Part shown: positions 196-19,840 of the stretch, in pieces
How positions within the stretch are numbered: position 1 is the stretch's first letter
How the letters are laid out: the number at the start of each line of letters is the position of its first letter
Assembly (NCBI GenBank): GCA_021812245.1
Contig: JAKAOK010000015.1
Coordinates: forward strand, 1 to 39,712
Direction of reading: 5' to 3'
From: a bacterium
Lineage (GTDB): Bacteria > SZUA-79 > Acidulodesulfobacterales > Acidulodesulfobacteraceae
Length of the DNA stretch: 39,712 nt
Made by a program: the position numbers and the translations under genes
Notes under the pieces: generated by a model
What the model saw: only the letters and a program-made list of their open reading frames with translations
Databases searched by the model: none
What the model was told of the DNA's origin: nothing

Positions 196-1278
196 TTATA
201 TAAAATTAATATGCTCCGGCGGATGTTTGAGCTTCCATAAAAATTCATTTATATTATGCGTTCTGCAGTTTGAATAACATTGTTTTTTAACATCTATTTT
301 TTTTGCAACCTTATTAACAATATTCCAATATCTATCGCTATTTATTATTTCAGCAAATGAACTCTTAATTAAATCGCCTAAAATCCATTCTTCGTTGCCA
401 AACATAGCGCCGCATGGATATAGCTTCCCGTCTCCGCTAGAATAAAGCAAGAAGGGGACGCCGAAACAATTATTGTAATTCCTTTCTCCTTTATTTGATA
501 TTTTATTCCATTTTACAATAACTTTATAACTTTCATTTCCAATAGATTCGGCTTCCGTCAATGAATCCTTATATTTCTCATATTCTCCTAGTTTTTCGTA
601 AATTCCGAGATCATTTTTTATGGAATCGCTGCATTGTTTTACTACTAAATAATCTACACCAATTTTTTTGCCTAATTTAGCAAGAGGAACAACCTGATTA
701 ACGTTATTAGGAGTTAAAACCATTTGCAAGCCTATAGTAATTGTTAATTTTTTAATTTTTTTAATTTTAACGCAAAACTTTATATTGCTAATTACTTTGT
801 CGAAATCTAAACTTCTGTGTATCCTCTTATAGTCGTTATTAGTAGCCGCGCTTAAATTAAATCTTATCCAAGATAAATATTCAAGCGCTTCTTCGCCTTT
901 TTTGCTCGTGTCTAACATTACCCCGTTTGTTCCCAAAGAAATATCCACGCCGGCTTTCTTGCCCTGAACTATAGCATCATAAACATAAGGATTTAACGTT
1001 GGTTCGCCCTCGCCTATAAATGCCATAGATTTAACACCCGCTTTACCTGCATCTTTTACGTAATTTATTAGAGGCGTTTTCGGAAAATATGTCGTTTGTC
1101 CTTTTTTATACAAATTGCCCTGCATAATACCAAAACAGTATTCGCAGTGTATGTTGCAACCTTTACTTAAGCCGACGTCTATGTGCAACGGAGCGATTTT
1201 TTCATTATTTAACCAGTCATTTACCCTGTCTAAATGCCAATATAACTTATGACCGTCCATTAAAAATTTATCAGACAT
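196..1278 (-). CDS. Radical SAM/SPASM-type protein (DGHKL family, copy 1)
   Basis: A 360-residue radical SAM enzyme. The [4Fe-4S] cysteines are C41, C45 and C48 (GCNIHCEYCFG), and a GEGEP motif lies at 89-93, as expected for SAM binding. A C-terminal cysteine set (C271, C289, C334, C338) looks like a SPASM/twitch domain that would hold one or more auxiliary clusters. The N-terminus (MDGHKLYWHLDRV) and the last residues (PEHINFI) are nearly identical to those of the protein at 4823-5890, so the two are paralogues. SPASM/twitch enzymes such as BtrN and NeoN oxidise or epimerise sugar-like rings. A sugar-modifying role is inferred from this and from the glycan neighbours. The substrate is unknown; peptide modification cannot be excluded. 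Confidence 0.85.
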   Translation of the reverse strand: MSDKFLMDGHKLYWHLDRVNDWLNNEKIAPLHIDVGLSKGCNIHCEYCFGIMQGNLYKKGQTTYFPKTPLINYVKDAGKAGVKSMAFIGEGEPTLNPYVYDAIVQGKKAGVDISLGTNGVMLDTSKKGEEALEYLSWIRFNLSAATNNDYKRIHRSLDFDKVISNIKFCVKIKKIKKLTITIGLQMVLTPNNVNQVVPLAKLGKKIGVDYLVVKQCSDSIKNDLGIYEKLGEYEKYKDSLTEAESIGNESYKVIVKWNKISNKGERNYNNCFGVPFLLYSSGDGKLYPCGAMFGNEEWILGDLIKSSFAEIINSDRYWNIVNKVAKKIDVKKQCYSNCRTHNINEFLWKLKHPPEHINFI

Positions 1279-1312: not shown

Positions 1313-2167
1313 TTAAATTAATTTTTCTTTTTTTAATCTTTCGCAGTAATCAAACAGCGCATCTTCCCAATGCCTAAGAAGCGATGTTTTAATAGAATTT
1401 AAAGGAGTGTAAGTATTTTTAATGGCAACAAACGGAAAATCTTTATACGATGCAGGTTGAATATCTATATCTAAATTTAAGTTTTTTATTATATTTTTCA
1501 TTATTTCATGCAAAGAAACACTGCCTTTGTTTGCAATATGATATAAGCCAAAATTTTCATTATTATTTAAAAAAGATAGCAATTTATACGCTATATCTAT
1601 ACTGTATGTAGGTGAAGATATAATATCGTCGGCTACTTTTATAATTTTTGCGCCATTTTCTATTTTTAAAAGCATTTTTTCTACAAATTGTTCTTTTTTT
1701 TTCGTAAAACCAAACAATATTGGTATTCTAAAAATATAATATTTTTTTGAATATGCCTGTATAAAACAATCGCCTAAATATTTTGTTGCTCCATAAATAT
1801 TAAGCGGAGAAGGAATATCTTTTTCATTATAAAAATCCATTTTAAAGTTATCAAAAACGGCATCCGTGCTAAAATGAACTAAAGTAAAATCATTCTTTTT
1901 CGACAATTCCGCAAGTTTTTTAGGATATAACGAATTTAAAATATATGCGGTTTTATTATCATTTTCACATTGATCTATCCCTATAAAAGCGATAGTATTT
2001 ATAACAATATCAAATTTATCGCTTTCTATTAATGAGCTCAGCAAGTTAAAGTCAACGGCATTAAAATTTGAAGTATTCTTACCACAAATACTAAAACCAT
2101 CTTTAAAAACTTCTTTAATAGCCGTTCCAAGTTTACCGGTATCTCCAAGTAACAGTATTTTTTTCAT
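1313..2167 (-). CDS. NAD(P)-dependent sugar epimerase/reductase, RmlD-like
   Basis: A 284-residue short-chain dehydrogenase of the extended type. The Rossmann glycine motif is GDTGKLG at 8-14. An STD segment at 100-102 and the catalytic pair Y125 and K129 (YGATK) complete the active site. The size and the missing C-terminal extension match RmlD (dTDP-4-dehydrorhamnose reductase) and related nucleotide-sugar reductases. No rmlA, rmlB or rmlC is in the window, so rhamnose synthesis is not supported and the true substrate may be another keto-sugar. Its ATG overlaps the TGA of the upstream transketolase gene by 4 nt, implying translational coupling. Confidence 0.8.
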   Translation of the reverse strand: MKKILLLGDTGKLGTAIKEVFKDGFSICGKNTSNFNAVDFNLLSSLIESDKFDIVINTIAFIGIDQCENDNKTAYILNSLYPKKLAELSKKNDFTLVHFSTDAVFDNFKMDFYNEKDIPSPLNIYGATKYLGDCFIQAYSKKYYIFRIPILFGFTKKKEQFVEKMLLKIENGAKIIKVADDIISSPTYSIDIAYKLLSFLNNNENFGLYHIANKGSVSLHEIMKNIIKNLNLDIDIQPASYKDFPFVAIKNTYTPLNSIKTSLLRHWEDALFDYCERLKKEKLI

Positions 2168-3093
2168 AAAATTTTATATCCCAAAATATTTTTAACTACA
2201 GTAACTATCGAATTTTTAGAAAGTCCAAATAATTTCCTCATTCCATTCTGGTCTTTTATTTCATGAATAAATTTATGGGTTATCCCTAAGGTAGTCAATT
2301 CATAATTATTAATTTTATTAATTGCGAATATCTCAAAAAGAATACTGCCTAAACCGCCTATTATATAATGCTCTTCTATGCTGATTACATGTTTAACTTT
2401 GCCTATCGTATCTATCAATAAAGATTCGTTAATTGGATTCAACATTGGAATAGAAACAACCTTAACCGATATTCCCTCTTTTAAAAGTTCTTTGCGTGCA
2501 TCCATAACCTCCGTCCCGATTGAACCGTGAAATATTAAACATACTTCTTCGCCGTCTTTCATTAAAATAGGCTCAGTTATATTTATGTTTTTATCCACAT
2601 GTATATTTGGCTCGCCTCTTTTAGCCAAACGTACATAAACTGGATTTTTCGATGTTAACGAATATTCGGCCGAAAGTTCCGCTTCTATCGGGTCGGCTGG
2701 AGATATTATAGTTAAATTAGGAAGCGTTCTTGCAATAGCAATATCCTCTATTGAATAATGGGTCATTCCCTGCGGAGCATAAGTAACGCCGCTGCCTATC
2801 CCGACGAGCGTTACCGCTAGATTTTGATAGCATATATCATTCCTTACCTGCTCATAAGTTCTGTATAATAAAAATGGAATTATATTATATATATAAACCT
2901 TAAAACCGGCAATAGCCATTCCGGCGGCAAAACCCGTTGCATTCTGTTCTGCTACGCCAAGATTTATAAAATTATCGGGACTTTCATTTTTAAAATTGTC
3001 AAAAACTCCAAGCCCCGCATCCCCCGATATTATAAATATATCTTTATTTTTTGAAACTTCTGACGTAATCTTATTTATAAATGCGCTTCTCAA
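2164..3093 (-). CDS. Transketolase C-terminal subunit (pyrimidine-binding and C-terminal domains)
   Basis: A 309-residue protein covering the second half of transketolase. The pyrimidine-binding domain carries the catalytic glutamate E49 in LGVAEQNATGFAAG. It is followed by the conserved YEQVRND segment and a C-terminal Rossmann-like domain (IGTEVMDA, then ISIEEH). It pairs with the N-terminal subunit encoded immediately upstream; the two genes overlap by 4 nt. Split transketolases transfer two-carbon ketol units, and in secondary-metabolite and polysaccharide clusters they are used on special sugars. Its place between an SDR and a glycosyltransferase argues for glycan work, not the pentose phosphate pathway, but this is not proven. 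Confidence 0.88.
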   Translation of the reverse strand: MRSAFINKITSEVSKNKDIFIISGDAGLGVFDNFKNESPDNFINLGVAEQNATGFAAGMAIAGFKVYIYNIIPFLLYRTYEQVRNDICYQNLAVTLVGIGSGVTYAPQGMTHYSIEDIAIARTLPNLTIISPADPIEAELSAEYSLTSKNPVYVRLAKRGEPNIHVDKNINITEPILMKDGEEVCLIFHGSIGTEVMDARKELLKEGISVKVVSIPMLNPINESLLIDTIGKVKHVISIEEHYIIGGLGSILFEIFAINKINNYELTTLGITHKFIHEIKDQNGMRKLFGLSKNSIVTVVKNILGYKIL

Positions 3094-3872
3094 AGAAGTT
3101 CCCTCAATGCTTTATCTTTATGTTCACCGGTTACTATATAATAATGCCACTCAAGTTTATTCTCCATAAATGACACCCCTTTTCCTTTAACGGTATCGGC
3201 TATTATAATATTAGGTTTATTTTTTGTTCTTTCTTTAAAAACCTGTCGTAAAGCAGAAATATCGTGCCCGTTTACTATAGCCGTATTCCAGCCGAAAGCC
3301 TCCCATTTATCTCTAACGGGCTCATAGCTACAAATTTCTTTCGCTCTGCCGTAACCCTGCAAATTATTATAATCAAGGATAACCGTAAAATTATCCAGTC
3401 CTAACTTTGAACCGAACAAAGCTCCTTCCCATACTGAACCTTCCTGCGATTCACCGTCTCCGATTAATACATAGACTTTTCTCTTTAAATTTCTCTTTTT
3501 AAAGCCGTATGCAATTCCAAGCCCCATATTAAATCCATGACCGAGTGAACCTGCAGAAACTTCTACCCCCTTTGCCGTAAACCTGTCGAGATGCGCGGGA
3601 AGAGTTCCGTCGTTTTTGAGATACCCTTTCAACAAATTTTCATTAATTATGCCGGTTTCTGCCAATGCTGCATAAAGAGCCATAGCTCCATGCGCTTTGC
3701 TTAAAATAAAAACATCCCTATTTTCCCATGGTTCTAATTTTAAAATATCAAAATATAAGACCGTTAATATGTCAACGCAGGATAAAGACGACCCTACATG
3801 CGCACTCTTTGAATCATGCGCCATTTCAATTATTTTTCTCCTAATGTTTTTTGACTTGTCTATAAGATTCAA
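3090..3872 (-). CDS. Transketolase N-terminal subunit (ThDP diphosphate-binding)
   Basis: A 260-residue protein equal to the first third of transketolase. The thiamine diphosphate/Mg motif begins with GDGESQEG at 138-145 and ends at the NN pair 169-170. H25 and H61 (SKAHGA) are typical substrate- or cofactor-binding histidines of the family. It is co-encoded with the C-terminal subunit (4-nt overlap), and together they would make one functional enzyme. The gene follows the GT9 gene after 9 nt. I take the ATG on 3870-3872 as the start. Confidence 0.88.
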   Translation of the reverse strand: MNLIDKSKNIRRKIIEMAHDSKSAHVGSSLSCVDILTVLYFDILKLEPWENRDVFILSKAHGAMALYAALAETGIINENLLKGYLKNDGTLPAHLDRFTAKGVEVSAGSLGHGFNMGLGIAYGFKKRNLKRKVYVLIGDGESQEGSVWEGALFGSKLGLDNFTVILDYNNLQGYGRAKEICSYEPVRDKWEAFGWNTAIVNGHDISALRQVFKERTKNKPNIIIADTVKGKGVSFMENKLEWHYYIVTGEHKDKALRELL

Positions 3873-3881
3873 AATGTTTTT

Positions 3882-4814
3882 TTAAATAATTTTTTTTAAA
3901 GTATCGATTATTTTATTAATATCAACGTAATCCATACAAAATGCATCGTTTTTACAAACCGAATTGTAACACGGCATGTATTTGCAATTAATCTCAGGGG
4001 TAACAAATTGACATCTGCCGTATGAAGAAACCTCATTATATGATGTTGCGCCGAAAAGAGCTACAACCTTTTTCTTTAAAGCAAGGGCTATATGTAAGCC
4101 TAGACTGTCCTGCGTTATTATACATCTGCATGAGTTCAGCCAGTCTATATATTCATATAAATCGTTCAACCCCTCCTGCCAGGAGATTTTGTATCTTTCT
4201 CTTAAAAGCAGTGATTCAAGCTCATTCCATTTATCCATAGGCATAGCTTTAGTAAGCCATTTAGAACCGGATTTATAATTGAGACCGATATCGTAAGCAG
4301 CAGTTGTTTTAGGCTTATAACCTAAAATATACTCCTGTCCCGTCCATTTCTCTCCTATCATTTCAATTAGCACTTTCTGCCAGTAATCGTTTGTTTTTTT
4401 CTCGCCGTTTTTATTCTGGATATAATTTAGAAAGTCTAAACCTTTTTCGTATGCGCTGTAAGCACCTGTTTGTGAATCAAACCTGAAGCCGTACTTGACC
4501 CATGCGTCTACCATATCGGCAATAGCGCATACCCCTGGTATTTTTTCAAGATTTATAAGTATATCGAATCTTTCCTTTAATAACTGAAACGGAACAAAAT
4601 TATCCCAGATTAAAATTCTATTTAAATACTCGTTGTTATTTAATAATGGGTATGCTTCCTCGGCAACAAGCCATGTTATTTCCGAATCGGGATGCTTGCC
4701 TTTTAAAGCGCTAAGTATAGGAGTCGTGCGCAAAACATCGCCAAGGCTAGGGATTTTGCCTATCTCCGAATCCAGCGTTTCGGAGTAACCGAGTTTTATA
4801 ATTAGTATCTTCAT
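3882..4814 (-). CDS. Glycosyltransferase family 9 (heptosyltransferase-like)
   Basis: A 310-residue GT-B protein. The N-terminus (MKILIIKLGYSETLD, then PSLGDVLRTTPILSALK) is the GT9 signature for the acceptor side. The donor-site segment ITQDSLGLHIALAL with VVALFGATS is the typical C-terminal Rossmann portion. The tail has a cysteine-rich stretch, CKYMPCYNSVC followed by another C, which also occurs in modified form in the two longer GT9 proteins at 21447-23171 and 25070-26671. GT9 enzymes normally transfer heptose or similar sugars from nucleotide donors in the cytoplasm. The actual sugar here is unknown. It sits between the transketolase pair and radical SAM copy 2, with gaps of 8-9 nt. Confidence 0.82.
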   Translation of the reverse strand: MKILIIKLGYSETLDSEIGKIPSLGDVLRTTPILSALKGKHPDSEITWLVAEEAYPLLNNNEYLNRILIWDNFVPFQLLKERFDILINLEKIPGVCAIADMVDAWVKYGFRFDSQTGAYSAYEKGLDFLNYIQNKNGEKKTNDYWQKVLIEMIGEKWTGQEYILGYKPKTTAAYDIGLNYKSGSKWLTKAMPMDKWNELESLLLRERYKISWQEGLNDLYEYIDWLNSCRCIITQDSLGLHIALALKKKVVALFGATSYNEVSSYGRCQFVTPEINCKYMPCYNSVCKNDAFCMDYVDINKIIDTLKKII

Positions 4815-4822
4815 AAAAGTAG

Positions 4823-5890
4823 TTATATAAAATTAATATGTTCCGGTTTATGGGACAACATTTCAAGAAATTCGTTTACGCGCGCCATTCGACAGTTAAC
4901 CCTGCATTCTTTCGCAATCTCAAGCCCGTTGAGTCCATAATCTATGGAGGATTTTCTTTTATCCGAAAATAAAATATCCTTTATATTATCGTCGTAAATA
5001 TTGCCTGCCTTGAATCTTTCGTCGCCAGTAAATACGGCGCAAGTATAAAAATCTCCTTTAGAGGTAAGAAAACCCCAGAAGGGAAGGGCGTAACAGTGAT
5101 GAAATTCTTTAATCTTTTTTATATATTTTTCAAAAGATTTTCTTCTGAAAATAATATTAATCTTGCAGGCATTTTTTTTTATAATATTATCTATATAATC
5201 TAATGTTTTTCTTGAATATAAATTTTCTTTATTTTTAAGCTGTTGCGGGTGTTTTGAAAATGATTTAAAAACAACATAATCGACACCTATGTCGGAAAAC
5301 AGGTTAATAGCATTTTCTATATCTTTTAAATTTTCTTCTATAACTAAAAACTGTATGCCTATTGTAGTTTTAAGTTTATTTTCGTTTTTTATTTTTACGA
5401 CGGATTTTATGTTATTAATGACTGTATCGAAAGTATGATTAGAGGATTTATGAACGATTTCGTAAATATCCTTAGTTCCTGCATCTACGCTGAATTTTAT
5501 CCATGTTAGATTTGGAATAATTATATTGAAAATATCTAAATTACCTATACTTCCGTTAGAAACGATAGCGGCGTCTATGTAATTCTTCTTTGTAGCTATT
5601 ATCATTTTATCTATATCTTTATGCAAAAAAGGCTCTCCGTCTCCCGCAAAAACTACACTTTTTAAGCCCGCTTCGCCCATTTTTTTCATAAAATTTTCAA
5701 AAACATCTGCGTCAAGACTTTGCTTTTCTTTCATTGCAAAATCCACGCCGCAAAAAATACACCTTTGATTGCAGTACGAAACTGGAGAAACTTCGATATA
5801 AATTGGAGAAATATATTTTTTTTCCTGCCATTCCCGAACCCTGTCTAAGTGCCAGTAAAGTTTATGTCCGTCGATTAGAAATTTGTCCAT
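4823..5890 (-). CDS. Radical SAM/SPASM-type protein (DGHKL family, copy 2)
   Basis: A 355-residue radical SAM enzyme. The cluster cysteines are C40, C44 and C47 (YCNQRCIFCG), with GDGEP at 83-87. A C-terminal set, C266, C284, C329 and C333, matches in spacing the set in the 196-1278 protein (C271, C289, C334, C338). Both share the opening DGHKLYWHLDRV and the ending PEHINFI. The core sequences are well diverged, so they probably act on different positions or substrates and are not a recent duplication. It follows the next radical SAM gene (5901-6815) after only 10 nt, so the two are expressed together. A role in ring oxidation or epimerisation of a sugar is inferred, not shown. Confidence 0.85.
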   Translation of the reverse strand: MDKFLIDGHKLYWHLDRVREWQEKKYISPIYIEVSPVSYCNQRCIFCGVDFAMKEKQSLDADVFENFMKKMGEAGLKSVVFAGDGEPFLHKDIDKMIIATKKNYIDAAIVSNGSIGNLDIFNIIIPNLTWIKFSVDAGTKDIYEIVHKSSNHTFDTVINNIKSVVKIKNENKLKTTIGIQFLVIEENLKDIENAINLFSDIGVDYVVFKSFSKHPQQLKNKENLYSRKTLDYIDNIIKKNACKINIIFRRKSFEKYIKKIKEFHHCYALPFWGFLTSKGDFYTCAVFTGDERFKAGNIYDDNIKDILFSDKRKSSIDYGLNGLEIAKECRVNCRMARVNEFLEMLSHKPEHINFI

Positions 5891-5900
5891 ATTTAATTTA

Positions 5901-6815
5901 TTATTTTCCTATATTTATAATTTCTACACTCGTGTGTCCATGTTCTTGAAAACGGTTTGTCTTTATCTTAACGTCGCAGGGGTTGCAGTCGCCGTAAAAC
6001 GAACATGGGCGGAATTCGTCTATTATATCTTCGTTTAAGTTTTCGTCGATAATATGGGCGTATGGATTTCTTCCTTTATATAAATCTGCATGGCATTTAT
6101 AAACATAACCGGAAGGATCGACTATAAGTTCCGTCGTCCTGCATTCGCAGGTTTTTAATTCCGAAGCGTTAACTGAACCATTATATTTAAAAGTTCCGTA
6201 TAATTTGCCGTTATATTCGCCTAAATATTCTTTAGTCCTGAAATCTATTCCGATGTCAAGACATCTTTCTTTAACTTTAAGTATGTGGTCTCTTAGCGAA
6301 CCGTCAGGCTGAAGTATGCCGAAAAGACCGATGTTAAACCCTGCATCCTTAAGTTTTAAAGTTTTTTTAATCAAATCGTCGATATAGTTTTGCCACGGAT
6401 GATAGCTGACTCTTATCGGAGCGTAAGGAGCGATTCTGTTGAATCTCCAGACCGGCGCTTCTTTGATAAATTTATCGACGTCGAACATTAGATTAGTGAG
6501 TAAATCCATTTTAATATCGGGTTTTACCTCGTTAACAAACTTATAAAAACCTTTATGGAGAGTAGGTTCGCCTCCCTGTAACGTAAGCGGCAAATCATCT
6601 CTTAATACAAGCCTGTTCGCGGCTTCAATCCATTCCTCCGCAGTCAGTCCGTTTCTATGAGCCTGTGAAACGCGGGAACCGCCGTTATGAATATTTATAC
6701 AGTAAGGGCATTTAAGGTTGCAGGATAAAGTAAGGAAAAAGGCTACGTAGTTGTGATGAGGCTTGAGCCTTATTATATTTAGGTTTAAATTGTCTTTTTC
6801 TTTAAATGGATTCAT
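5901..6815 (-). CDS. Radical SAM protein with C-terminal cysteine cluster
   Basis: A 304-residue radical SAM protein of a different subfamily from its neighbours. The SAM-cluster cysteines are C32, C36 and C39 (SCNLKCPYCI) and the GGEP motif is at 81-84. The C-terminal third has C223, C225, C241, C271, C277 and C280, enough to bind auxiliary iron-sulfur clusters, though the spacing is not that of a textbook SPASM domain. It lacks the DGHKL N-terminus. The ATG overlaps the stop codon of the GT2 gene by 4 nt. Substrate unknown; the glycan context suggests sugar or glycolipid modification. Confidence 0.82.
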   Translation of the reverse strand: MNPFKEKDNLNLNIIRLKPHHNYVAFFLTLSCNLKCPYCINIHNGGSRVSQAHRNGLTAEEWIEAANRLVLRDDLPLTLQGGEPTLHKGFYKFVNEVKPDIKMDLLTNLMFDVDKFIKEAPVWRFNRIAPYAPIRVSYHPWQNYIDDLIKKTLKLKDAGFNIGLFGILQPDGSLRDHILKVKERCLDIGIDFRTKEYLGEYNGKLYGTFKYNGSVNASELKTCECRTTELIVDPSGYVYKCHADLYKGRNPYAHIIDENLNEDIIDEFRPCSFYGDCNPCDVKIKTNRFQEHGHTSVEIINIGK

Positions 6816-8080
6816 AAATTGACAATGTTATTTTTATTAAGTTCTGCCGCAAATATTTCTTTTGGCGTATAAATTATTTCGTCATTTATACCAGATTCTT
6901 GAAGTTTAACCCTTATAGATTCTTCTTTGTTTTGGTTGTAAACCGCTATAATATAAATATCCGGCTTAGGCAATCCTTTTAATTCATTTGTCTTATATAT
7001 CTTTAATCCATAATTCTCTCCGCTTTTAAAATCGTCGATGTAGCAATATATATTCTTATTTAACCGCTTCAATAACATCGATACGTGTAAACTTGCATCG
7101 CCGGTACCGCAAATTGCAAAATTATTATATTCATCAATCGGCTGCTTATTTGAATTAAAGTAGTAATTTACAAGTTTAAATGTAAATTCTTCGTTTTTAT
7201 TTTTTATATATTCTATTAATTCTTTTGGACTTGCATTAAACATGGAAAAATTTTTAAACAAACGATAATATATTTTTACAAACATTAATTTCAGATAATT
7301 ATCTAACTCGTTTTCCGTTAATTTGCCGACGGTTTTAGCAGTCCTGTAAATCCACTTAACTGTTTCAACTGCATCGCCTATATTCCTTTTATCGTCTTTT
7401 TTTATAAGAGCAAAATTCTGACCTTCTAAATCCATACTCCATAAATAAGGATATTTATCGATAAAAGCTGCTTTTCCGTAAAAAAGGGAACATATGGTTG
7501 ATTGATTATCCGATAATAAGTTATCTAAAGATACTTCTTGATATATTTGTTTTAATATTTTAGTTTTATATATCGCTACGCCGCCGACATGACCGGGACA
7601 ATTTCTGTTCCTAAAAAAAATATCTTTGCCGTTTTCTATTTGTTTTTGAAAAAGATTTGCATAATTAAATGATTTTAAAATTTTTTGTGTTTCTCTGCTT
7701 ACGCCATGAAAATTAGAACAAATCATTACGATTTCTTTATCCTTAGAAACAAGCGACATTGCTTCGGAAAAATAATTATTATATATAAATGTATCGTCAT
7801 CGCCTATAAGAATAACCCACTCTCCGAATACAAAATTAAGTATCGCGTCTGCAGTATTAGTAAGAGAACCTAAATTTTTTTCACGTTTTATATATCTAAT
7901 ACGATTATCTTTAGAATACGTCTTTCTTATCATATCTTCTGTATTATCGGTAGAACAATCATCAAAAATTACAATTTCGAAATTTGGATAATCTTGTCTT
8001 ATAATAGAATCTATCATCCTAATAATGTAATTTGACCTGTTGTAAGTAGGTAAAATTATGCTTATAAACGGTAAATTCAT
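6812..8080 (-). CDS. GT2 glycosyltransferase with C-terminal Rossmann-like domain
   Basis: A 422-residue protein. Residues 5-230 form a GT-A family 2 domain. It opens ISIILPTYNRSNYI, has DDCSTDN near 40 for nucleotide binding and a metal-binding DDD at 94-96. The last ~105 residues are a separate domain (AICGTGDAS, then CYIDD) resembling the nucleotide-binding domains at the start of the FkbM protein and of the partial gene at the left edge. I chose the ATG on 8078-8080 because a strong ribosome-binding site (AGGAGAGAGGA) precedes it. The alternative TTG on 8105-8107 would add nine residues and has no such site. It transfers a sugar in the cytoplasm; donor and acceptor are unknown. Confidence 0.8.
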   Translation of the reverse strand: MNLPFISIILPTYNRSNYIIRMIDSIIRQDYPNFEIVIFDDCSTDNTEDMIRKTYSKDNRIRYIKREKNLGSLTNTADAILNFVFGEWVILIGDDDTFIYNNYFSEAMSLVSKDKEIVMICSNFHGVSRETQKILKSFNYANLFQKQIENGKDIFFRNRNCPGHVGGVAIYKTKILKQIYQEVSLDNLLSDNQSTICSLFYGKAAFIDKYPYLWSMDLEGQNFALIKKDDKRNIGDAVETVKWIYRTAKTVGKLTENELDNYLKLMFVKIYYRLFKNFSMFNASPKELIEYIKNKNEEFTFKLVNYYFNSNKQPIDEYNNFAICGTGDASLHVSMLLKRLNKNIYCYIDDFKSGENYGLKIYKTNELKGLPKPDIYIIAVYNQNKEESIRVKLQESGINDEIIYTPKEIFAAELNKNNIVNL

Positions 8081-8085
8081 ACTTA

Positions 8086-8096
8086 TCCTCTCTCCT
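8086..8096 (-). promoter_or_regulatory. Ribosome-binding site that fixes the start of the GT2 gene
   Basis: Read on the minus strand the site is AGGAGAGAGGA, ending 5 nt before the ATG on 8078-8080. It lies inside the longer reading frame that could start at TTG 8105-8107, so it favours the shorter 422-residue protein. Confidence 0.7.
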
Positions 8097-8142
8097 TTTT
8101 CAAACAATAGCTATATGCTTCATAATTTTCAATGCAAATATG

Positions 8143-9162
8143 CTATAATCCGCCTTTTCTTATCATTAAATTTATTAATATTTTTTCAGAGTAAATATCT
8201 ATATCGTCAAGCTGTGTATGGGTTACTAGCCCGCAATTACCGCATACTGGATGGTTTTTCCGTTTTTTCATTAGAAACATTTTCTGATATTCAAAAAGTT
8301 TTTTACTATTCCATATTTCTTTTACGGTATTGCACTTAACATCCCCTATTACTAGCTTTCTAGACCAATCTCCATGACAAAGACTTGCTGTTCCGTCAGA
8401 ATTGATTGCAAAAGAATAAAATACAAAAGGACAAACCAAGACCTCTTTTATTTTTTCTCCGTACATGTTCATTTGCCGATTAACTTTTACCTCTCTTAAT
8501 TCAAATTCTGGCCAGCAAGGAGAAATAGACTCTATAAATATTTTATCCGCTATATTTCCAAAAATTTCATAAAATTTGTTGCGTTCCTCAATAGATAATA
8601 TATCGCCGTTTATTTTGACATACATCTCGCAATTTCCTCTATTTTCGTAAAAATGACGAATATTATCAACCATATTGTCAATATTAACGGATACTCCGGA
8701 AAAATATTTATATTGTTCTTTGTTTATCCCTTCAATGGAAATGGTTATTCTATCGAGACCCGCTTTTATGATTTCCAAGTTCTTTTTATAACTGAGAAGA
8801 GTGCCGTTCGTAGCAGTCCCTATTTTCTGAGCACAGCCTTTATCTTTGGCATATTTAACCATGTCTGCAAAATGCGGGTTAAGCAAAGGCTCTCCGTCCT
8901 TATAAAGCAATAAAAGCCTGATAGGTTCTTTGAAGTCGCAAATATCGTTTATAATTTTTTTATATAAGCTAAAATCCATTAATCCAAACTTCCTGCCCGG
9001 CGTCTTCTTCATTAGCTCTCTATCGCCTGTCGGACAGAATTTACATTTAAAATTACAAACATCGGATGGGTCAATAAAAATACGGAAAGGTATTTTTAAT
9101 GGAATAGCTTCCTCTAATTTAGTCCTATTTTCGCATTTAAGCGTTTTAGCTTGTGCTTTCAT
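8143..9162 (-). CDS. Radical SAM protein with SPASM domain
   Basis: A 339-residue radical SAM enzyme of the classic SPASM type. C36, C40 and C43 (VCNFKCKFCPTG) bind the SAM cluster, and YKDGEPLL carries the GEP-like motif. The C-terminal region has C244, C262, C277, C307 and C310, including the typical INSDGTASLCHGDW and the VCGNCG ending. Standard SPASM proteins use these to hold auxiliary clusters. It is longer-range related to, but not a close paralogue of, the two DGHKL proteins. It lies between the FkbM methyltransferase and the GT2 gene. The substrate is unknown; a role in tailoring the island's sugar is inferred from position. Confidence 0.87.
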   Translation of the reverse strand: MKAQAKTLKCENRTKLEEAIPLKIPFRIFIDPSDVCNFKCKFCPTGDRELMKKTPGRKFGLMDFSLYKKIINDICDFKEPIRLLLLYKDGEPLLNPHFADMVKYAKDKGCAQKIGTATNGTLLSYKKNLEIIKAGLDRITISIEGINKEQYKYFSGVSVNIDNMVDNIRHFYENRGNCEMYVKINGDILSIEERNKFYEIFGNIADKIFIESISPCWPEFELREVKVNRQMNMYGEKIKEVLVCPFVFYSFAINSDGTASLCHGDWSRKLVIGDVKCNTVKEIWNSKKLFEYQKMFLMKKRKNHPVCGNCGLVTHTQLDDIDIYSEKILINLMIRKGGL

Positions 9163-9185
9163 AAGGTAATAATAATAATGGCATA

Positions 9186-10262
9186 TTATGATAATTTATC
9201 CGGTACGGCATAACATATTATCTCAAACGCATTATACGCATAAATTCTTAAATAAAGTTTATATCCTAAATTCCAACTTTTAATTAGGTATGGAATTTCA
9301 TACAAATGATTATATTTATGATAAACTGAAATCGCTAACACCGGTTTATATTTTTTAATCAACTTTTCTGCGCCGTTTAAAGCATTCAATTCAGCCCCTT
9401 CTATATCCATTTTAATATAATTAGCTGGATAATTAAGTAACGACTCGTCGATAGAAATGGCGGTTGCAAAACTATCCGCATTCATATCTATGTGGTTCGA
9501 GGATGACCTGCTGCTATTATTATTAAATCTTAATATTTCAAGTTTATCCCAAACGGCGCATGGGAACAAAAAACAATTTATATCGGTTTTATGAACAAAC
9601 TCGCTCAATGATATAAAATTCATAGGAGAAGCCTCAAAAGCGACGACAGATACTAAATTAAAATTTTTACTGATTTTATATATGCTGTCCCCGTTATATG
9701 CGCCGCAGTCTATTAAATTAACGTTTATAAGATTTAAATCAATATCTTTAGGGCAATACTGTTCGTTGCATTCATTCGGCGGCGGCAAAATATCTAATTT
9801 GCCTGTTTGTCTATATTCCAAAATTTTATTAAATAACTTCCTAGAGTAATCATCCGACCATATTTTTCCAATATTTTCTATAATCTCTTTATGCTCAGGT
9901 TTCATTTTATTCTTCGTCAGCCAGAAATAATCATCGATACCACACATATTATCGCTAAAATCCTGATAAAATTTAATGGGATTAATAATTTGTAAAAATC
10001 CTGAATTAAATAAAATTTTTTCGATGTCCCATAAATTGACCTTATCATTAAAAATTCCTATCAAGCAGGTTGTTCCGGCTTTGAAGTTTTCAGTCAACTT
10101 AGTGTCGTTTATTGAAATACAAAGGGTATTATCGATATATGTACCTATTTTATCTTTATCCTTATCGATAAAATATAAAACTTCACAATTATTTTTTTCT
10201 AAAATATTTTTAATTTGACGTCCGAAAAATCCTGCCCCGTATATTATAACTTTATTTTTCAT
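9186..10262 (-). CDS. FkbM-family methyltransferase with N-terminal Rossmann-like domain
   Basis: A 358-residue two-domain protein. Residues 1-100 form a nucleotide-binding-like domain with GAGFFG at 9-14 and a strand ending YFIDKD. Residues 180-358 form an FkbM SAM-dependent methyltransferase domain. Its markers are DCGAYNGDS at 185-193 (SAM loop), AFEASP at 208-213, KMDIEGAE at 284-291, and SVYHK at 312-316. FkbM enzymes O-methylate hydroxyls of polyketides and glycans, so a methylated sugar in the surface glycan is the likely product. The N-terminal domain recurs in two other proteins of this island, which points to a shared ligand or scaffold. Confidence 0.83.
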   Translation of the reverse strand: MKNKVIIYGAGFFGRQIKNILEKNNCEVLYFIDKDKDKIGTYIDNTLCISINDTKLTENFKAGTTCLIGIFNDKVNLWDIEKILFNSGFLQIINPIKFYQDFSDNMCGIDDYFWLTKNKMKPEHKEIIENIGKIWSDDYSRKLFNKILEYRQTGKLDILPPPNECNEQYCPKDIDLNLINVNLIDCGAYNGDSIYKISKNFNLVSVVAFEASPMNFISLSEFVHKTDINCFLFPCAVWDKLEILRFNNNSSRSSSNHIDMNADSFATAISIDESLLNYPANYIKMDIEGAELNALNGAEKLIKKYKPVLAISVYHKYNHLYEIPYLIKSWNLGYKLYLRIYAYNAFEIICYAVPDKLS

Positions 10263-10286
10263 GTATAGTTGACCCGATTTTATATT

Positions 10287-12113
10287 TCAATAATTAATCC
10301 TCTTATCTTTATCTGTTAGTAGAATAAGCATATTTTTCTCTAATTCTTTTCTGTCTAAAAACGGCCATAAATCTTCAAGAGGTTTTGAAACGATAGAACC
10401 GTCGTCATTAATTACGGACGAGAGTTTTGGCGCCGTTTGTAAATCCGGGTCTATCATTACTTCGCATAATACCGGTCCTTCGTCGTTCAAAACGCTTTCG
10501 ACTTCTTCTTTTAAAATATACTGGTTTTCTATTTTTTTTACTTTAATGCCGTATGCCGAAGCAATTTTACAGGTATCAGGCAGTGTTAGACCGCTTGAGG
10601 GGTCGCAACAGACCAATCTTCCTTCAAAGAATTTATTGTGAGTATTCCTTATAGCGGCGTAACCGTTATTATTAAGGACAAAAATCTTTACGGGAATGTT
10701 TAATCTTTTTAAAGTTTCTAATTCCTGAATATTATGTTGGAGTCCTCCGTCGCCTATTATGCAAATAGTTCTCCTGCCGCCGCTTGCTAAACATACGCCG
10801 ATACTCTGCGGCAAACCGAAACCCATAGAGCCTAAACCAGGAGAGTTTATGACTCTCTGTCCCGACTTTGCCCTAAAAGCCTGAAGGGTTATTTCGGCAC
10901 AACTGCCTGAGCTTCCGGGAACTAATAAATCTTTTTCGGAAAGTAAATCCGATATTGCATCTATTAAGGCATAAGTATTTACGTATTTTGCCGGTTTCAA
11001 ATATTCCTTTAAAATAACCGGATATTTATTTTTTAATTTTTTACATGTTTCTATCCATTCGGAAATATCGTTAAGTTTTATATCAACGGACTGCAGGGCA
11101 AATTCTTTTATAAAATCTCCCGCATCGCTTATAATAGGCAGGTCTATTTTTGTATTGGTTTTTTTAATTTCGTTTTCGTCTATATCTACTATAACCTTTA
11201 TGCCGCTTCGCGCAAAATCTTGATAATTGTGCCCAACCTGAGGAAGATCAAGGCGCGCTCCTATAACAAGTATGAAGTCAGCGCTTTGCTGAATAAAATT
11301 AGCATATCTTGAAGCAATAGAGCCAGGTCTGCCGAAATATATTTCGCCGTCTTCCGGCAAAAAATCAGTCATTCTCCATGTGGTAAGAACGGGAATTTTC
11401 AACTTATCAATAATATCTTTAAAAATCTGTTCAGCTCCTGAAAGCCTAATGCCTCTTCCCGCAAGAATAACTGGGCGTTTGGAACTATTTAACAAGTTTA
11501 TGCACTGCGCAACCTGCTTATTTAACCCCTTTTTTCTAAAAACTGAACATTCTTCTTCGCCTTTATCAAACGCACGCAAATTATTTTCATCTATAACGAC
11601 ACCCTGAACGTCTAAGGGAATATCTATCCAAACTGGCCCAGGTCGGCCGGTTTTTGCAAGATAAACCGCCTTTTCCATATGATACTTTATATCTTCAGGT
11701 TCAGTTACCGTAACGGCATATTTAGTTACCGGCCTTACGATAGATATTATATCTACTTCCTGAATACCCATCTGCCTTACGCCTTTATTTGCAAGAAGGT
11801 CTTTACGCTTAACCTGCCCCGATATTACGATAAGAGGAGTAGAATCAATCCAAGCGGCGGCAACTCCGGTAATTGCATTTGTGCCGCCTGGTCCGGTAGT
11901 TACTATAGCTGCGGCAATATTATTGCTATATTGCGCATAGCCGTCTGCGGCTATAACCGCTGCTTGCTCATGGAGCATACAAACATGCTGAAGGCTTTTC
12001 TTTTTCCCCATAGAATCTACAAGGTGCATACAGCCGCCGCCTGGAAGCAAAAATATATGACCAATACCTAAATCTGAAATAAAATTTATTACGTAATCGG
12101 ATAGCTTAATCAA
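10287..12113 (-). CDS. Acetolactate-synthase-like ThDP-dependent enzyme
   Basis: A 608-residue ThDP enzyme with the three-domain order of acetolactate synthase. The catalytic glutamate is E49 (HEQAA), TTGPGGTNAITG lies near 72-83, and the diphosphate motif runs from GDG at 453-455 to the asparagines about 27 residues later (NNN). It starts at TTG (12111-12113) with AAGGAG five nt upstream. No ilvN or ilvC is nearby, so valine or isoleucine synthesis is unlikely. In polysaccharide clusters, relatives such as YerE transfer a two-carbon unit from pyruvate to a keto-sugar and make branched sugars. That role is an inference; an unrelated decarboxylase is possible. Confidence 0.85.
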   Translation of the reverse strand: MIKLSDYVINFISDLGIGHIFLLPGGGCMHLVDSMGKKKSLQHVCMLHEQAAVIAADGYAQYSNNIAAAIVTTGPGGTNAITGVAAAWIDSTPLIVISGQVKRKDLLANKGVRQMGIQEVDIISIVRPVTKYAVTVTEPEDIKYHMEKAVYLAKTGRPGPVWIDIPLDVQGVVIDENNLRAFDKGEEECSVFRKKGLNKQVAQCINLLNSSKRPVILAGRGIRLSGAEQIFKDIIDKLKIPVLTTWRMTDFLPEDGEIYFGRPGSIASRYANFIQQSADFILVIGARLDLPQVGHNYQDFARSGIKVIVDIDENEIKKTNTKIDLPIISDAGDFIKEFALQSVDIKLNDISEWIETCKKLKNKYPVILKEYLKPAKYVNTYALIDAISDLLSEKDLLVPGSSGSCAEITLQAFRAKSGQRVINSPGLGSMGFGLPQSIGVCLASGGRRTICIIGDGGLQHNIQELETLKRLNIPVKIFVLNNNGYAAIRNTHNKFFEGRLVCCDPSSGLTLPDTCKIASAYGIKVKKIENQYILKEEVESVLNDEGPVLCEVMIDPDLQTAPKLSSVINDDGSIVSKPLEDLWPFLDRKELEKNMLILLTDKDKRINY

Positions 12114-12118
12114 AAATT

Positions 12119-12124
12119 CTCCTT
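12119..12124 (-). promoter_or_regulatory. Ribosome-binding site for the TTG-started ThDP enzyme
   Basis: AAGGAG on the minus strand ends five nt before TTG 12111-12113. No ATG in the frame precedes the conserved N-terminus, so the site supports a TTG start. Confidence 0.65.
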
Positions 12125-12152
12125 ATTTATTTGATTATCGATTTAGCCTGTT

Positions 12153-13691
12153 CTAGGTAATAGGTTTTAAAAGCCGGTCAGACCAAAGGTTAATAAAAGT
12201 TTTTCTATCCTTATTATTCACTATCGATTCATCATCATAGTAAGAATCGTCTTTATAATGAGTGGTGGATATTTCTTCGAAAATAACACCGTCTTTAGTA
12301 CTAAAACTATGTTTTGCACCTCGTTCTACGACCACGATGTCTCCTGATTTATATTCTTTTTCAACTCCGTCAATAGTTATAATTATTTTACCGTATAATA
12401 CATAAAACGTTTCTTCTTTTTTTCTATGAAAATGCACCGGATGGTTTTGATTCGGCAGCAATAAAATTAATTTTTTGCAATATTCCCTATTAATGCAGTT
12501 TATAATAATCGCACCGACTTCATCAAATCTTTGAATGCCGTAATGATGGGATATTTCTATATCCATACGACCAGGAAGCGCAATACCGCTATTTAAAATC
12601 AGCATTCTTGCTTTATTGATTATCTGCGTAACTCTGTCTCTTTGATTTACAGATATAGCATCAGTCTCTAATATAGGTTGATTAACGTTTATATCCTTAG
12701 AAGCCGTAAGTTTGAGATATTTTGACATTTGATTTGCCACAATTTGATTTTCTACATTTGGTATGGCAAAATAAACATTATTTAAATCAATGTCTTCGCC
12801 TTTCTTTATGATCTTGGAAGCAAAAACGCCTCTCTGAAGTCCGCGTAAATCTTGTCTTTCCTTATAGGTACCGCTATTCCTTTCTCCTGATATTCCGCAA
12901 ATTTCATATGCGTTTTTAGCTGATTGCAACCATAAAGAGATATTATCCGGAAGCGATGAATAGGAATTAATATCATACTTGTTACTTTTCAATGCTACAT
13001 GTCTTTCAAAAACGGAAGCTCCTTTGGAAATTGCTATTTTTATCGCATCATAATTATCTGGAAGCTCGTGCGTAGAATAACCTATAGGAATATCCGAATA
13101 TCTTTGTTCAAGTATATTTATCTGATTTAGCTGAAGGTTTTTTCTGTCCGTAGGATACTCTCCTACGCAGTGCATAAGGCAAAAAGTTTTATCCCTATTT
13201 TCAAGAAAAGCTGCAACTCTGTCTATGTCTTCTATAGTAGAACCCGCCGTCGAAAGAATAAGCGGTTTATCTTTTTGAACAATTTTTTCGAGAAGCGGCC
13301 AGTCTGTAAAAGAACAGCTTGCTACCTTAATGATGTCGTATTCGTGCTTTATTATTAAATCTACGGAATCTTCGTCAAAAGGAGTGCATATAGTAATAAA
13401 ACCCAACTTCTGCGCTTCTTCTTTTAAAAATAACCTTTCCGATTCTGATAAATTTGTTTCTAGGAAACGCTTTACGTATTTCAAACCAGTCCTATTAATA
13501 TAATCTGGATGAATAAACGTTTTAAGATTTCTATATTGAAATTTAAACGCAAATTTAAAGTCGGCAAAATCATCACGATTGCATATTTTATGAAGTTCTT
13601 GAATTATATTCAGACCGTGTTTAACATCACCCATATGGTTGTTGGCCATTTCTAAAATAAATAATTTTGCGAACAAGCTTTTATTTATCAT
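12153..13691 (-). CDS. NeuB-like nonulosonate synthase fused to a SAF-like and a cupin domain
   Basis: A 512-residue fusion. Residues 8-285 match the sialic-acid-synthase barrel: E14 with NNH at 17-19 and GD at 21-22, a KFQ at 50-52, STAG at 147-150, HCVGEYP near 174, GYSTH at 204-208, and ERH at 229-231. Residues 286-350 look like the antifreeze/SAF lid (RGVFASKIIKKGEDI). Residues 365-490 form a cupin with metal ligands H420, H422, E426 or E427 and H461, similar to sugar isomerases. NeuB enzymes condense PEP with a hexosamine-type aldose. The cupin could isomerise or deliver the substrate. Normal NeuB is about 340-350 residues, so the fusion is unusual. No CMP-sugar synthetase (neuA) or epimerase (neuC) is seen here. 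Confidence 0.85.
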   Translation of the reverse strand: MINKSLFAKLFILEMANNHMGDVKHGLNIIQELHKICNRDDFADFKFAFKFQYRNLKTFIHPDYINRTGLKYVKRFLETNLSESERLFLKEEAQKLGFITICTPFDEDSVDLIIKHEYDIIKVASCSFTDWPLLEKIVQKDKPLILSTAGSTIEDIDRVAAFLENRDKTFCLMHCVGEYPTDRKNLQLNQINILEQRYSDIPIGYSTHELPDNYDAIKIAISKGASVFERHVALKSNKYDINSYSSLPDNISLWLQSAKNAYEICGISGERNSGTYKERQDLRGLQRGVFASKIIKKGEDIDLNNVYFAIPNVENQIVANQMSKYLKLTASKDINVNQPILETDAISVNQRDRVTQIINKARMLILNSGIALPGRMDIEISHHYGIQRFDEVGAIIINCINREYCKKLILLLPNQNHPVHFHRKKEETFYVLYGKIIITIDGVEKEYKSGDIVVVERGAKHSFSTKDGVIFEEISTTHYKDDSYYDDESIVNNKDRKTFINLWSDRLLKPIT

Positions 13692-13724: not shown

Positions 13725-14858
13725 CTAATTTGAATTAAAAAAAGATTTGCATTTTTGTGCAAATTTTTTAACCGATTCCTCTGTTGCTTTTTCATAAAGT
13801 TTAATTTCTAAAAGTAATTTTTCTCTGGTTTTTTTTGCATAATCTATATCACGAAATCCATATGCAGAACCGTAACAATCTTTTTCGTTAATGCACCATT
13901 CTTTTCTTGATAATCCTGTTTCCGGTATAACGATAGGGAGGCAGCCGCAAATAGCGGCATATGGAACATAAGCTGTATTTAAATCATATGATATACAACA
14001 CTTAGTATTATTAAAAATTTCTGCAATTTCCTTATGAGACTTGTCGTCGATTAAAATTGAATTTTTTATATTATGCACAATCTTTCTATTTTTGCCCTTT
14101 CTCAAAATGTAACAGGTTCCCTTTCTTGCGCCAAAATTAGTTTGCTTATAAACATCTAAAAATGAAAGCCCTACAAATAATCTGTTTTCCTCCGGTATAT
14201 TGAATTCTGGAGGTATATAATCTTTTTGCAAATAGAAAAAAAGCTCGTCTTTTCCATAATTAACTTCTCCGGTAAAAAAACCAGGCTTATAAAGCAACCA
14301 TCTAACGACGTTTTTTGCTTTAAGTGGATTTCCGCTAACAACCTCGGGATAAACCACAATCGGATTATCATCTAAATCATAAATTTTTGCTAAAGGAGTG
14401 TGAAATTTTTCGTAAATTCCGTTATTACCCAATTGCGACTGAGACCACAACCAAATATAAGCCTGTTCCCCCTGTTTATTTAATAAATCGCAAAGTCTAT
14501 GTAATACCAGATTGCCGCCGCTATTTTCGTCGAAGAGGGGGGCATAAATGATAAACTTTACGTTCTCTTTACGTTTTGGGACCTTTGCAAATGTATCTCT
14601 TCCCTCTTTCCGACCATATATAATATAATGCAATAAAGGGTTCATCCCTGAATTCCTTACATCGGTATAATAATCTAAATAAAATTTTGTATCAAACTTC
14701 AAAGACGGGTATCTGCCTTCTTTCCAACCAAAAATTAAATAATGTTCAATCGGATTCATATTATTAAGTTTAACATCTTCATACATTGAAAGATAAAACT
14801 CTTCGTCAAAAAGACCCGACCCTTTAATTATTTCTTTATATAATTGCAAATCATTCAT
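13725..14858 (-). CDS. GT-B-like glycosyltransferase with two N-terminal DV/EGR repeats
   Basis: A 377-residue protein. The N-terminus has two tandem copies of a ~33-residue motif, at 17-49 and 55-87. Each runs FD..FYL..Y.DV, then MNP..HY, then KEGR. These repeats are known at the ends of many bacterial glycosyltransferases and may bind a carrier or partner. The remainder (KFIIYAPLFDENSGGNLVLHR, ISYDLNTAYVPYAAICGCLP, IVIPETGLS) resembles a GT-B fold with a donor site near the C-terminus, but I cannot assign a family with certainty. It is the first gene downstream of the decayed remnant at 14906-15121. Substrate unknown. Confidence 0.65.
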   Translation of the reverse strand: MNDLQLYKEIIKGSGLFDEEFYLSMYEDVKLNNMNPIEHYLIFGWKEGRYPSLKFDTKFYLDYYTDVRNSGMNPLLHYIIYGRKEGRDTFAKVPKRKENVKFIIYAPLFDENSGGNLVLHRLCDLLNKQGEQAYIWLWSQSQLGNNGIYEKFHTPLAKIYDLDDNPIVVYPEVVSGNPLKAKNVVRWLLYKPGFFTGEVNYGKDELFFYLQKDYIPPEFNIPEENRLFVGLSFLDVYKQTNFGARKGTCYILRKGKNRKIVHNIKNSILIDDKSHKEIAEIFNNTKCCISYDLNTAYVPYAAICGCLPIVIPETGLSRKEWCINEKDCYGSAYGFRDIDYAKKTREKLLLEIKLYEKATEESVKKFAQKCKSFFNSN

Positions 14859-19222: not shown

Positions 19223-19834
19223 TTAAAGTTTGTTTGTTGCGGATAATATTTCGATAATTCTCTTAACTCCCTCTTCGGCATTTATACCGCCGGCCTTTAT
19301 ATGTACATCCGGCTTTTCAGGCTTTTCGTAAGGCGAATCGACGCCCGTATAGTTTTCGATTTCTCCGTTCAACGCCCTCTTGTACCAGCCCTTCGCATCC
19401 CTTTTAACGCATTCTTGAAAAGGCGTATCTATAAATATTTCGACGAAATCGCGGGGGCCTATTATTTCTCTTGCCGCCTGCCTGTGCTTTCTTAAAGGAG
19501 AAATAAACGACGCAATTACGATAATTCCGGCATCGACGAAAAGTTTAGCCGCTTCGGCAACCCTTTTTATGTTTTCCATCCTGTCTTCATCGGAGAATCC
19601 AAGCCCACGGCTCAAGCCGTGCCTTATATTGTCCCCATCAAGCAGATATGTATGACTGCCTTTCTTATTTAATGTTTCTTCGAGCATATTCGCTATAGTG
19701 CTTTTGCCGCATCCGCTGAGTCCCGTAAACCATAAGACGCAGCCTCTCTGGTTTTTAAGTTTTTCCCTGTCGCTCCTTTTTACTTTATGTTCATGCCAGA
19801 CGATACAAGAATCATGATTGCTTATTGACGCCAT
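19223..19834 (-). CDS. cysC: Adenylylsulfate (APS) kinase
   Basis: A 203-residue APS kinase that phosphorylates adenosine 5'-phosphosulfate to PAPS. The P-loop is GLSGCGKST at 38-46, the APS-binding DGDN is at 66-69 followed by IRHGL, and the family FISPLR segment is at 110-115, with S112 at the usual phospho-acceptor position. The length is standard for stand-alone CysC. The neighbouring gene upstream encodes a PAPS-type sulfotransferase, 6 nt away. That strongly suggests PAPS is made for sulfating the glycan, not for sulfate assimilation. No ATP sulfurylase gene (sat, cysD or cysN) is in the window, so APS must come from elsewhere. Confidence 0.93.
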   Translation of the reverse strand: MASISNHDSCIVWHEHKVKRSDREKLKNQRGCVLWFTGLSGCGKSTIANMLEETLNKKGSHTYLLDGDNIRHGLSRGLGFSDEDRMENIKRVAEAAKLFVDAGIIVIASFISPLRKHRQAAREIIGPRDFVEIFIDTPFQECVKRDAKGWYKRALNGEIENYTGVDSPYEKPEKPDVHIKAGGINAEEGVKRIIEILSATNKL

Positions 19835-19840
19835 AATTAT

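Follow-up and report, generated by a model that had tools for sequence, protein, structure and literature searches.

The YerE-like thiamine diphosphate (ThDP)-dependent lyases are the closest described systems for the genes treated here. YerE itself adds decarboxylated pyruvate to CDP-3,6-dideoxy-4-keto-glucose (PMC12247030), which is made by RfbF, RfbG and RfbH. Longer donors have been described for its relatives: ErwE uses a hydroxy keto acid with this acceptor on the way to erwiniose, its preferred donors being 4-hydroxy-2-oxo acids; MMAR_2332 serves caryophyllose; and MygE, to which the branched sugar gastriose of Mycobacterium gastri is attributed, accepts keto acids from C3 to C8 as donors when benzaldehyde is the acceptor (PMC12247030). 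R. palustris CGA009 and Spirochaeta aurantia are further producers of functionalized C-branched sugars (PMC12247030). Structure 8rph is that of another YerE-like enzyme, JanthE, according to PMC12188165. Here we describe a contig of 39,712 nucleotides (JAKAOK010000015.1 of assembly GCA_021812245.1, C61 in our numbering; the whole contig is called the window below) from a bacterium of the Acidulodesulfobacteraceae, in which the gene for a YerE-like enzyme stands beside one for a NeuB-type phosphoenolpyruvate (PEP) condensing enzyme fused to a cupin. We consider it probable that the two make up one two-step machine for a C4-branched sugar with a long chain. They are encoded as follows.

12153..13691, minus strand: NeuB-type PEP condensing enzyme (barrel and SAF domain) fused to a D-lyxose-isomerase-like cupin (PF03102, 2.5e-41; Cupin_2, 2.1e-11)
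12159..12659, minus strand: the C-terminal cupin, D-lyxose isomerase-like (profile and Foldseek matches to 2y0o)
10287..12113, minus strand: YerE-like ThDP-dependent decarboxylase/carboligase (TPP_enzyme N, M and C)

A genome collection of 84,980 species was scanned with the NeuB-cupin protein, which gave 259 confirmed stretches; the counts below use the best 80 loci, with fetched flanks of at most about 10 kb and often less. By their record titles these loci come from about 20 phyla, including Nitrospirae, Omnitrophota, Elusimicrobia, Firestonebacteria, Patescibacteria, Lentisphaerae, Mycobacterium and archaea, and most of them are metagenome-assembled genomes, which may contain binning errors. 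In 67 of the 80 loci a ThDP homologue lies no more than 3 kb from NeuB-cupin, and in 74 there is one inside the fetched flanks. Counted by open reading frames (ORFs), the ThDP gene follows downstream at less than 200 bp in 26/80 and at 200-1000 bp in 37/80, while it is elsewhere in 10 and absent from 7, three of which end within 1.5 kb downstream. As controls, the 20 best-scoring classical NeuB genes were taken from 42 carrier genomes (these represent 42 of the 80 loci), and a ThDP neighbor was found within about 3 kb at none of them (0/20), one control stretch being cut by a contig end and four sharing their contig with a NeuB-cupin gene. In a mirror-tree comparison over 58 loci, NeuB and ThDP distances are correlated (r 0.694), a value reached in none of 500 label shuffles. 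Of the gene set whose recurrence in other genomes the preliminary description had named as a check, NeuB-cupin and the ThDP enzyme do recur together.

The genes for the YerE acceptor are also frequent at these loci. Homologues of RfbF, RfbG and RfbH lie within 3 kb of NeuB-cupin in 39, 43 and 41 of the 80 loci, respectively, compared with 3, 2 and 12 of the 20 controls, where the printed matches are relatives of 27-33% identity except for two short RfbF stretches of 45-48%. One representative of each scored above the NCBIfam cut-off, namely for glucose-1-phosphate cytidylyltransferase (RfbF), CDP-glucose 4,6-dehydratase (RfbG) and RfbH. A small HAD-like gene is found within 3 kb in 40/80 loci; its family match is weak (5e-4, under the cut-off) and it has no Pfam match.

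The NeuB match occupies the first 350 residues of the 12153-13691 protein, which has the barrel and SAF fold and the conserved catalytic residues of the NeuB superfamily. In an alignment of 80 rows (the window and 79 loci), K50, S125, S147, H208, E229 and H231, which are shared with the sialic and pseudaminic acid synthases (NeuB, PseI), are unchanged in all rows, and it is from these residues that NeuB chemistry is predicted. Unlike those synthases, the protein carries an added cupin and stays at 131 bits under the equivalog cut-offs for both sialic acid synthase (NeuB_NnaB, 399.65) and pseudaminic acid synthase (PseI, 340). Its closest solved relative is 3g8r, a Chromobacterium protein of unproven function (348.6 bits vs approximately 80 for sialic acid synthase). 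Where sialic acid synthase has R314 (RPG in 1xuu, wild type), all 80 rows have I, F, M, W or L and none has R. In sialic acid synthase this arginine contacts the N-acetyl group of N-acetylmannosamine, and its loss points to a substrate that lacks such a group. Ordinary sialic or pseudaminic acid synthesis was rejected on the equivalog cut-offs, on R314 and on the finding that the only CTP_transf_3 gene of the window assembly is KdsB.

For the cupin, a profile of 40 family members matched first the D-lyxose ketol-isomerase 2y0o (6.6e-14), then quercetin dioxygenases in second and third place (5.6e-11) and in fourth the D-lyxose isomerase 7nzo (1.1e-10). When the AlphaFold2 model of NeuB-cupin (mean pLDDT 92) was submitted to Foldseek, 2y0o was again the first structure beyond the NeuB group (rank 13, 8.2e-11). 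The alignment with 2y0o and 7nzo runs over two stretches that include the metal-ligand positions, which we take to be four: H422, E427 and H461 are invariant in 80/80, and H420 is H in 52. Both homology and metal ligands agree with a D-lyxose isomerase-like cupin; the window family differs from the isomerases in the fusion to NeuB and in having Gln for the first histidine in 28/80. Judged from sequence and model, the 12153-13691 protein is a ketol-isomerase-like domain joined to a PEP-condensing domain.

The partner protein (10287-12113) has its best NCBIfam match in acetolactate synthase, at 379.7 bits under the cut-off of 538. Its closest solved relative is 8rph (412 bits, the next solved sequence having 273.6), and by the bit scores of solved sequences it is nearer to JanthE than to acetolactate synthases. 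The catalytic E49 is present in 66/66 aligned rows, with GDG in 62 of them, the window included, and SDG in 4. The three TPP-enzyme domains, the catalytic Glu and the GDG/CDG-type motif of a YerE-like lyase are thus all found. The enzyme shares the ThDP architecture with YerE, ErwE, MMAR_2332, MygE and JanthE, and in about half of the related loci the genes for CDP-3,6-dideoxy-4-keto-glucose adjoin. In contrast to those lyases it is tied to the NeuB-isomerase fusion, the presumed maker of its donor, and in the window genome the dideoxysugar genes are located elsewhere.

The route suggested by these genes would begin with the cupin turning a ketose into an aldose, most simply a pentulose into a pentose, as its D-lyxose isomerase relatives imply. 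The NeuB domain would then condense the aldose with PEP to a 3-deoxy-2-ulosonic acid, in other words a 4-hydroxy-2-oxo acid (C8 from a pentose). The YerE-like enzyme would decarboxylate this acid and add the acyl anion to the C4 ketone of a nucleoside diphosphate (NDP)-4-keto-(3,6-di)deoxyhexose. Finally, a reductase would make the 1'-ketone an alcohol, and methyltransferases and glycosyltransferases would finish the sugar and attach it, perhaps to the nearby flagellin. Genomics and the known chemistry of the closest relatives give good support to the pair working as one machine, and it is from them that we infer every one of these reactions. The branched surface sugar of the preliminary description, as far as NeuB and the ThDP enzyme are concerned, is likewise predicted from the genes, and it agrees with the co-occurrence, the RfbF/RfbG/RfbH neighbors and JanthE as closest solved relative. 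In its most specific form, the proposal is that the fusion makes free octulosonic acid and that the YerE-like enzyme welds a seven-carbon chain to C4 of an NDP-4-keto-dideoxyhexose, in a widely exchanged and as yet unnamed pathway; towards this form we lean on balance, with some reserve.

The known long-chain sugars fit such a donor. A 4-hydroxy-2-oxo acid is the type of product given by NeuB/PEP condensation, which fits the donor preference of ErwE. Caryophyllose is described in PMC5706390 with a 1,3,4,5-tetrahydroxyhexyl chain at C4; the 1' and 3' carbons of this chain bear oxygen and 2' does not, the pattern that a 4-hydroxy-2-oxo donor would leave after loss of CO2. The sugar of M. gastri is a C4-branched 3,6-dideoxy-xylo-hexopyranose, to go by the title of the work cited for it. 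The carbon count of the proposed route is five from a pentose and three from PEP less one as CO2. This corresponds exactly to the seven-carbon, 2'-deoxy chain of the M. gastri sugar, which we take to be 1,3-dimethoxy-4,5,6,7-tetrahydroxyheptyl; this heptyl chain was not found in the literature searched. The same literature held no mention of NeuB as a source of the long keto acid or of a link to YerE-type branching, although an earlier mention is possible, and the word NeuB does not occur in the review PMC12247030.

A general parallel is the pathway of 3-deoxy-D-manno-octulosonic acid (Kdo), in which the isomerase KdsD, the synthase KdsA and the phosphatase KdsC act. Isomerase, PEP condensation, phosphatase and an eight-carbon product are shared with the proposal. 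The protein families are other ones, and the product would be decarboxylated and ligated instead of CMP-activated.

At the M. gastri locus (L072), clustering with annotated representatives identifies RfbF with RfbH- and RfbG-like genes that face it, a GT2-like gene, NeuB-cupin and the ThDP gene. The locus also has two methyltransferase-like genes and an HAD gene resembling phosphoglycolate phosphatase (153 bits against a cut-off of 180). The ThDP protein is the sole YerE-like candidate in the genome and very likely MygE, since it stands far above all others (next best 34%). Of a larger group of genomes, 148 belong to this genus; full-length NeuB-cupin was found in four of these (G064, G065 (M. 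gastri), G067 and G071), and a MygE-like gene of 85-100% identity in the same four. Two more genomes (G116 and G174) have a 39% NeuB without the cupin, which in G116 adjoins a 39% ThDP gene with the same RfbF/G/H-like genes and GT2 gene. G166 carries a short-chain dehydrogenase and a 37% ThDP gene at this locus, and the 20 kb fetched there include no NeuB homologue. The donor-making slot of the mycobacterial locus, as judged from these gene arrangements, seems to be exchangeable.

Viral contigs carry the pair as well. The IMG/VR scan gave 79 loci, of which 50 with near full-length NeuB-cupin were used and 29 cupin-only matches were left out. The ThDP gene is inside the fetched flanks of 20 of these 50, several being near-duplicates. 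Among the loci of at least 47% identity it is present in 18/19, the exception (L177) being cut off just after NeuB, and it is also found in L187 and L188 (44 and 42%). The contigs with both genes are L207, L217 and L170-L188 other than L177, and many of them have dideoxysugar-type genes. One contig (L174) combines RfbH (466.6 vs 423 bits), a dTDP-glucose-4,6-dehydratase-like gene under its cut-off, NeuB-cupin and the ThDP gene, and a late sigma factor gene (L174:10824-11387; phrog_234, 3.5e-50) adjoins these sugar genes, which suggests a T4-like phage. Phages may thus carry a branched-sugar pathway. Two other homes were tried and rejected: no match was found among plasmids (72,556 records, E 1e-40) or, even though IMG/VR viral contigs carry NeuB-cupin, among reference phages (50,697 records, E 1e-20).

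The acceptor would have to come from elsewhere in the window genome (1.78 Mb, 61 contigs, completeness 87%). RfbF (425.6 vs 300 bits) and CDP-glucose 4,6-dehydratase (474 vs 278) are encoded at the end of contig C19, and on contig C22 a GDP-mannose 4,6-dehydratase (579 vs 415 bits) adjoins a 3-dehydrase-like DegT protein. With 274.9 bits the latter stays short of the cut-off for RfbH (423), and it has HH as in RfbH, a motif that we take to replace the pyridoxal phosphate lysine in 3-dehydrases. From its gene content the genome can plausibly make 4-keto acceptors.

A number of observations count against the two-step machine. The window cluster itself lacks RfbF/G/H, an RfbH ortholog was not found in the 87% complete assembly, and neither was the small HAD-like gene, in a search that had no positive control. 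A ThDP gene is missing from the 3 kb around NeuB-cupin in 13/80 loci and from the whole of the fetched flanks in six. The correlation of NeuB and ThDP distances could stem from shared ancestry alone. In vitro, MygE was not seen to act on ketones (PMC12247030). At L046 a NeuA-like motif is found near NeuB-cupin together with a CTP_transf_3 match of 123 bits at a distance of 3.3 kb. Finally, 29 divergent IMG/VR loci (34-44% identity; L189-L219 except L207 and L217) have NeuB-cupin without the ThDP gene, and 14 of these 29 have a second NeuB-like stretch nearby; this group probably makes another product.

The block that contains the pair extends further along the minus strand, in uninterrupted ORFs:

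9186..10262, minus strand: FkbM-type methyltransferase with N-terminal PglD_N domain (PF05050, 1.3e-13; PF17836, 1.1e-5)
8143..9162, minus strand: radical S-adenosylmethionine (SAM)/SPASM protein, rSAM4 (PF04055, PF13186)
6812..8107, minus strand: GT2 glycosyltransferase (PF00535, 2.3e-28)
5901..6815, minus strand: radical SAM protein, rSAM3 (PF04055, 3.2e-7)
4823..5890, minus strand: radical SAM/SPASM protein with DGHKLxWH start, rSAM2 (PF04055, 3.2e-19)
3882..4814, minus strand: GT9 (heptosyltransferase-like) glycosyltransferase (PF01075, 3.9e-11)
3090..3872, minus strand: transketolase N-terminal half, TKN (PF00456, 5.5e-31; GDG..NN motif)
2164..3093, minus strand: transketolase C-terminal half, TKC (Transket_pyr, 9e-29; Transketolase_C, 2.1e-15; AEQ motif)
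1313..2167, minus strand: RmlD-like NDP-sugar reductase (PF04321, 3.2e-57; 186.8 bits, under the rmlD cut-off of 224)
196..1278, minus strand: second DGHKL radical SAM/SPASM protein, rSAM1 (PF04055, 6.7e-13; SPASM, 2.6e-6), 33% identical to rSAM2

The preliminary description had placed NeuB-cupin, the ThDP enzyme, a split transketolase, an RmlD-like reductase and glycosyltransferases in one minus-strand block, and all of them were found there as intact ORFs. It had also counted four radical SAM proteins between 1313 and 13691; all four exist, each with CxxxCxxC, but rSAM1 lies just outside that range. The transketolase is split into separate N and C genes, and the ThDP motifs by which it was scored, which we assume to be the diagnostic ones, are present in both halves as well as in the ThDP enzyme. 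O-methylation by the FkbM-type protein is possible, going by its domains.

It had further been supposed that all three families of carbon-carbon bond-forming enzymes unite with the radical SAM proteins in a single pathway. In such a pathway the transketolase could, for example, supply a pentulose to the isomerase domain or add a second two-carbon branch that the RmlD-like protein reduces. The tight gene order in the window speaks for a single pathway, and so does the recurrence of the combination on one unrelated contig (L165, the same place as L042), where TKN, TKC, rSAM2, RfbF, RfbG, NeuB-cupin and a distant ThDP gene are found. In addition, split transketolases have been proposed to move hydroxyacetyl units to keto sugars in Streptomyces, and a split gene in a sugar cluster is also known from the proposals for miharamycin and amipurimycin (PMC12247030); the window pair differs from the latter in being accompanied by DGHKL radical SAM proteins. 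The wider counts are against it. Homologues of TKN, TKC, rSAM1, rSAM2 and the RmlD-like protein are each present in 2/80 NeuB-cupin loci, those of rSAM3 and GT9 in 0/80, FkbM in 8/80 and rSAM4 in 16/80 (E 1e-10; many flanks are shorter than 10 kb). A search with rSAM2 in 51 chosen genomes gave a match in nine, and TKN with TKC adjoins a DGHKL radical SAM gene in three of the 11 fetched stretches (L162, L164 and L165), with NeuB-cupin in L165 only; rSAM2 adjoins TKN-TKC in L162 and L165 and likely belongs with them, judging from these neighborhoods. In genome G008, of the same family as the window, L164 lines up rSAM3, rSAM1, TKN, TKC, GT9 and again rSAM1; its 18 kb contain neither NeuB-cupin nor a ThDP gene, and the genome has no NeuB-cupin. 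In genome G031 the transketolase and radical SAM genes stand without NeuB-cupin or ThDP gene (L162), and NeuB-cupin is elsewhere (L007); that this genome has both modules, in different places, may still be counted in favor of a single pathway. A contig of 8.5 kb from a genome of the window's genus (G013, L159) has rSAM2, rSAM3 and GT9 at 75-92% identity (rSAM3 92%) and no transketolase. The single pathway is therefore unlikely and was dropped on the 2/80 count. Of the co-occurrence to be looked for in relatives, NeuB-cupin with the ThDP gene stands and the whole combination was seen once (L042), whereas the transketolase pair does not follow. By gene content, the split transketolase and the DGHKL radical SAM proteins are probably a second, separable module, usually apart from NeuB-cupin and the ThDP gene, whose task would be another modification or at most the supply of the pentulose.

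In a rival reading the two genes serve two unrelated sugars side by side, NeuB-cupin leading to a CMP-activated ulosonic acid and the ThDP enzyme using pyruvate for a short branch of the yersiniose type. The usual fate of NeuB products is CMP-activation, and CTP_transf_3 matches were found in 39 of the 42 carrier genomes (above 75 bits in 31) and in the window genome, with a match 3.3 kb from NeuB-cupin in G051; mycobacterial G166 shows the ThDP gene without NeuB. The match of the window genome is, however, KdsB, and CTP_transf_3 is missing from three of the 42 carriers and stays below 45 bits in eight more, including all five mycobacteria, some of these genomes possibly being incomplete. A six-frame search for the NeuA motif found none in the 20 classical NeuB controls either and carries no weight. 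The classical NeuB genes also have no ThDP neighbor, and MygE and MMAR_2332 act on longer keto acids (PMC12247030), so two separate sugars appear quite improbable. That the ThDP enzyme only decarboxylates the NeuB product, lengthening the aldose by two carbons without a branch (R-CHO to R-CHOH-CH2-CHO), is very improbable, for although the wider family has decarboxylases such as benzoylformate decarboxylase, the closest solved relative is the ketone-accepting JanthE and 4-keto-dideoxysugar genes are often nearby.

Along the window, pilus genes are followed by aroC/aroK, flagellin, FlaG, FliD, FliS and several glycosyltransferases, and beyond them by the minus-strand sugar block; further glycosyltransferase genes stand between this block and flagellin/FlaG/FliD/FliS. 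Next to NeuB-cupin, 13725-14858 encodes a protein without any Pfam match that has homologues in 4/80 NeuB-cupin loci (L066, L067, L070 and L076). At 19223-20809 an adenylylsulfate kinase (PF01583, 8e-66) adjoins a weakly sulfotransferase-like protein (2.7e-4, under the cut-off), perhaps pointing to a sulfated glycan. The phylum-level search covered 30 genomes, all of one family; in another genus of this family (G005, L003) an interrupted NeuB fragment of 82% identity was found, from which the module seems to have been gained and lost.

That YerE-like enzymes add long chains, and that some prefer 4-hydroxy-2-oxo acids, is already known. The NeuB-isomerase beside the ThDP gene is a testable answer to the question of which enzyme supplies the natural long keto acid, and with it two enzymes could give access to tertiary alcohols that bear long polyol chains. 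Candidate makers of branched sugars are marked in dozens of lineages and on some phage-like contigs. If the proposed pathway is true, chain length and 2'-deoxy pattern would be predictable from the genome, and the pathway would be spread over many bacterial phyla, archaeal-labelled contigs and phage-like contigs. Ulosonic acids would then be not only final sugars but also carbon-carbon coupling reagents.

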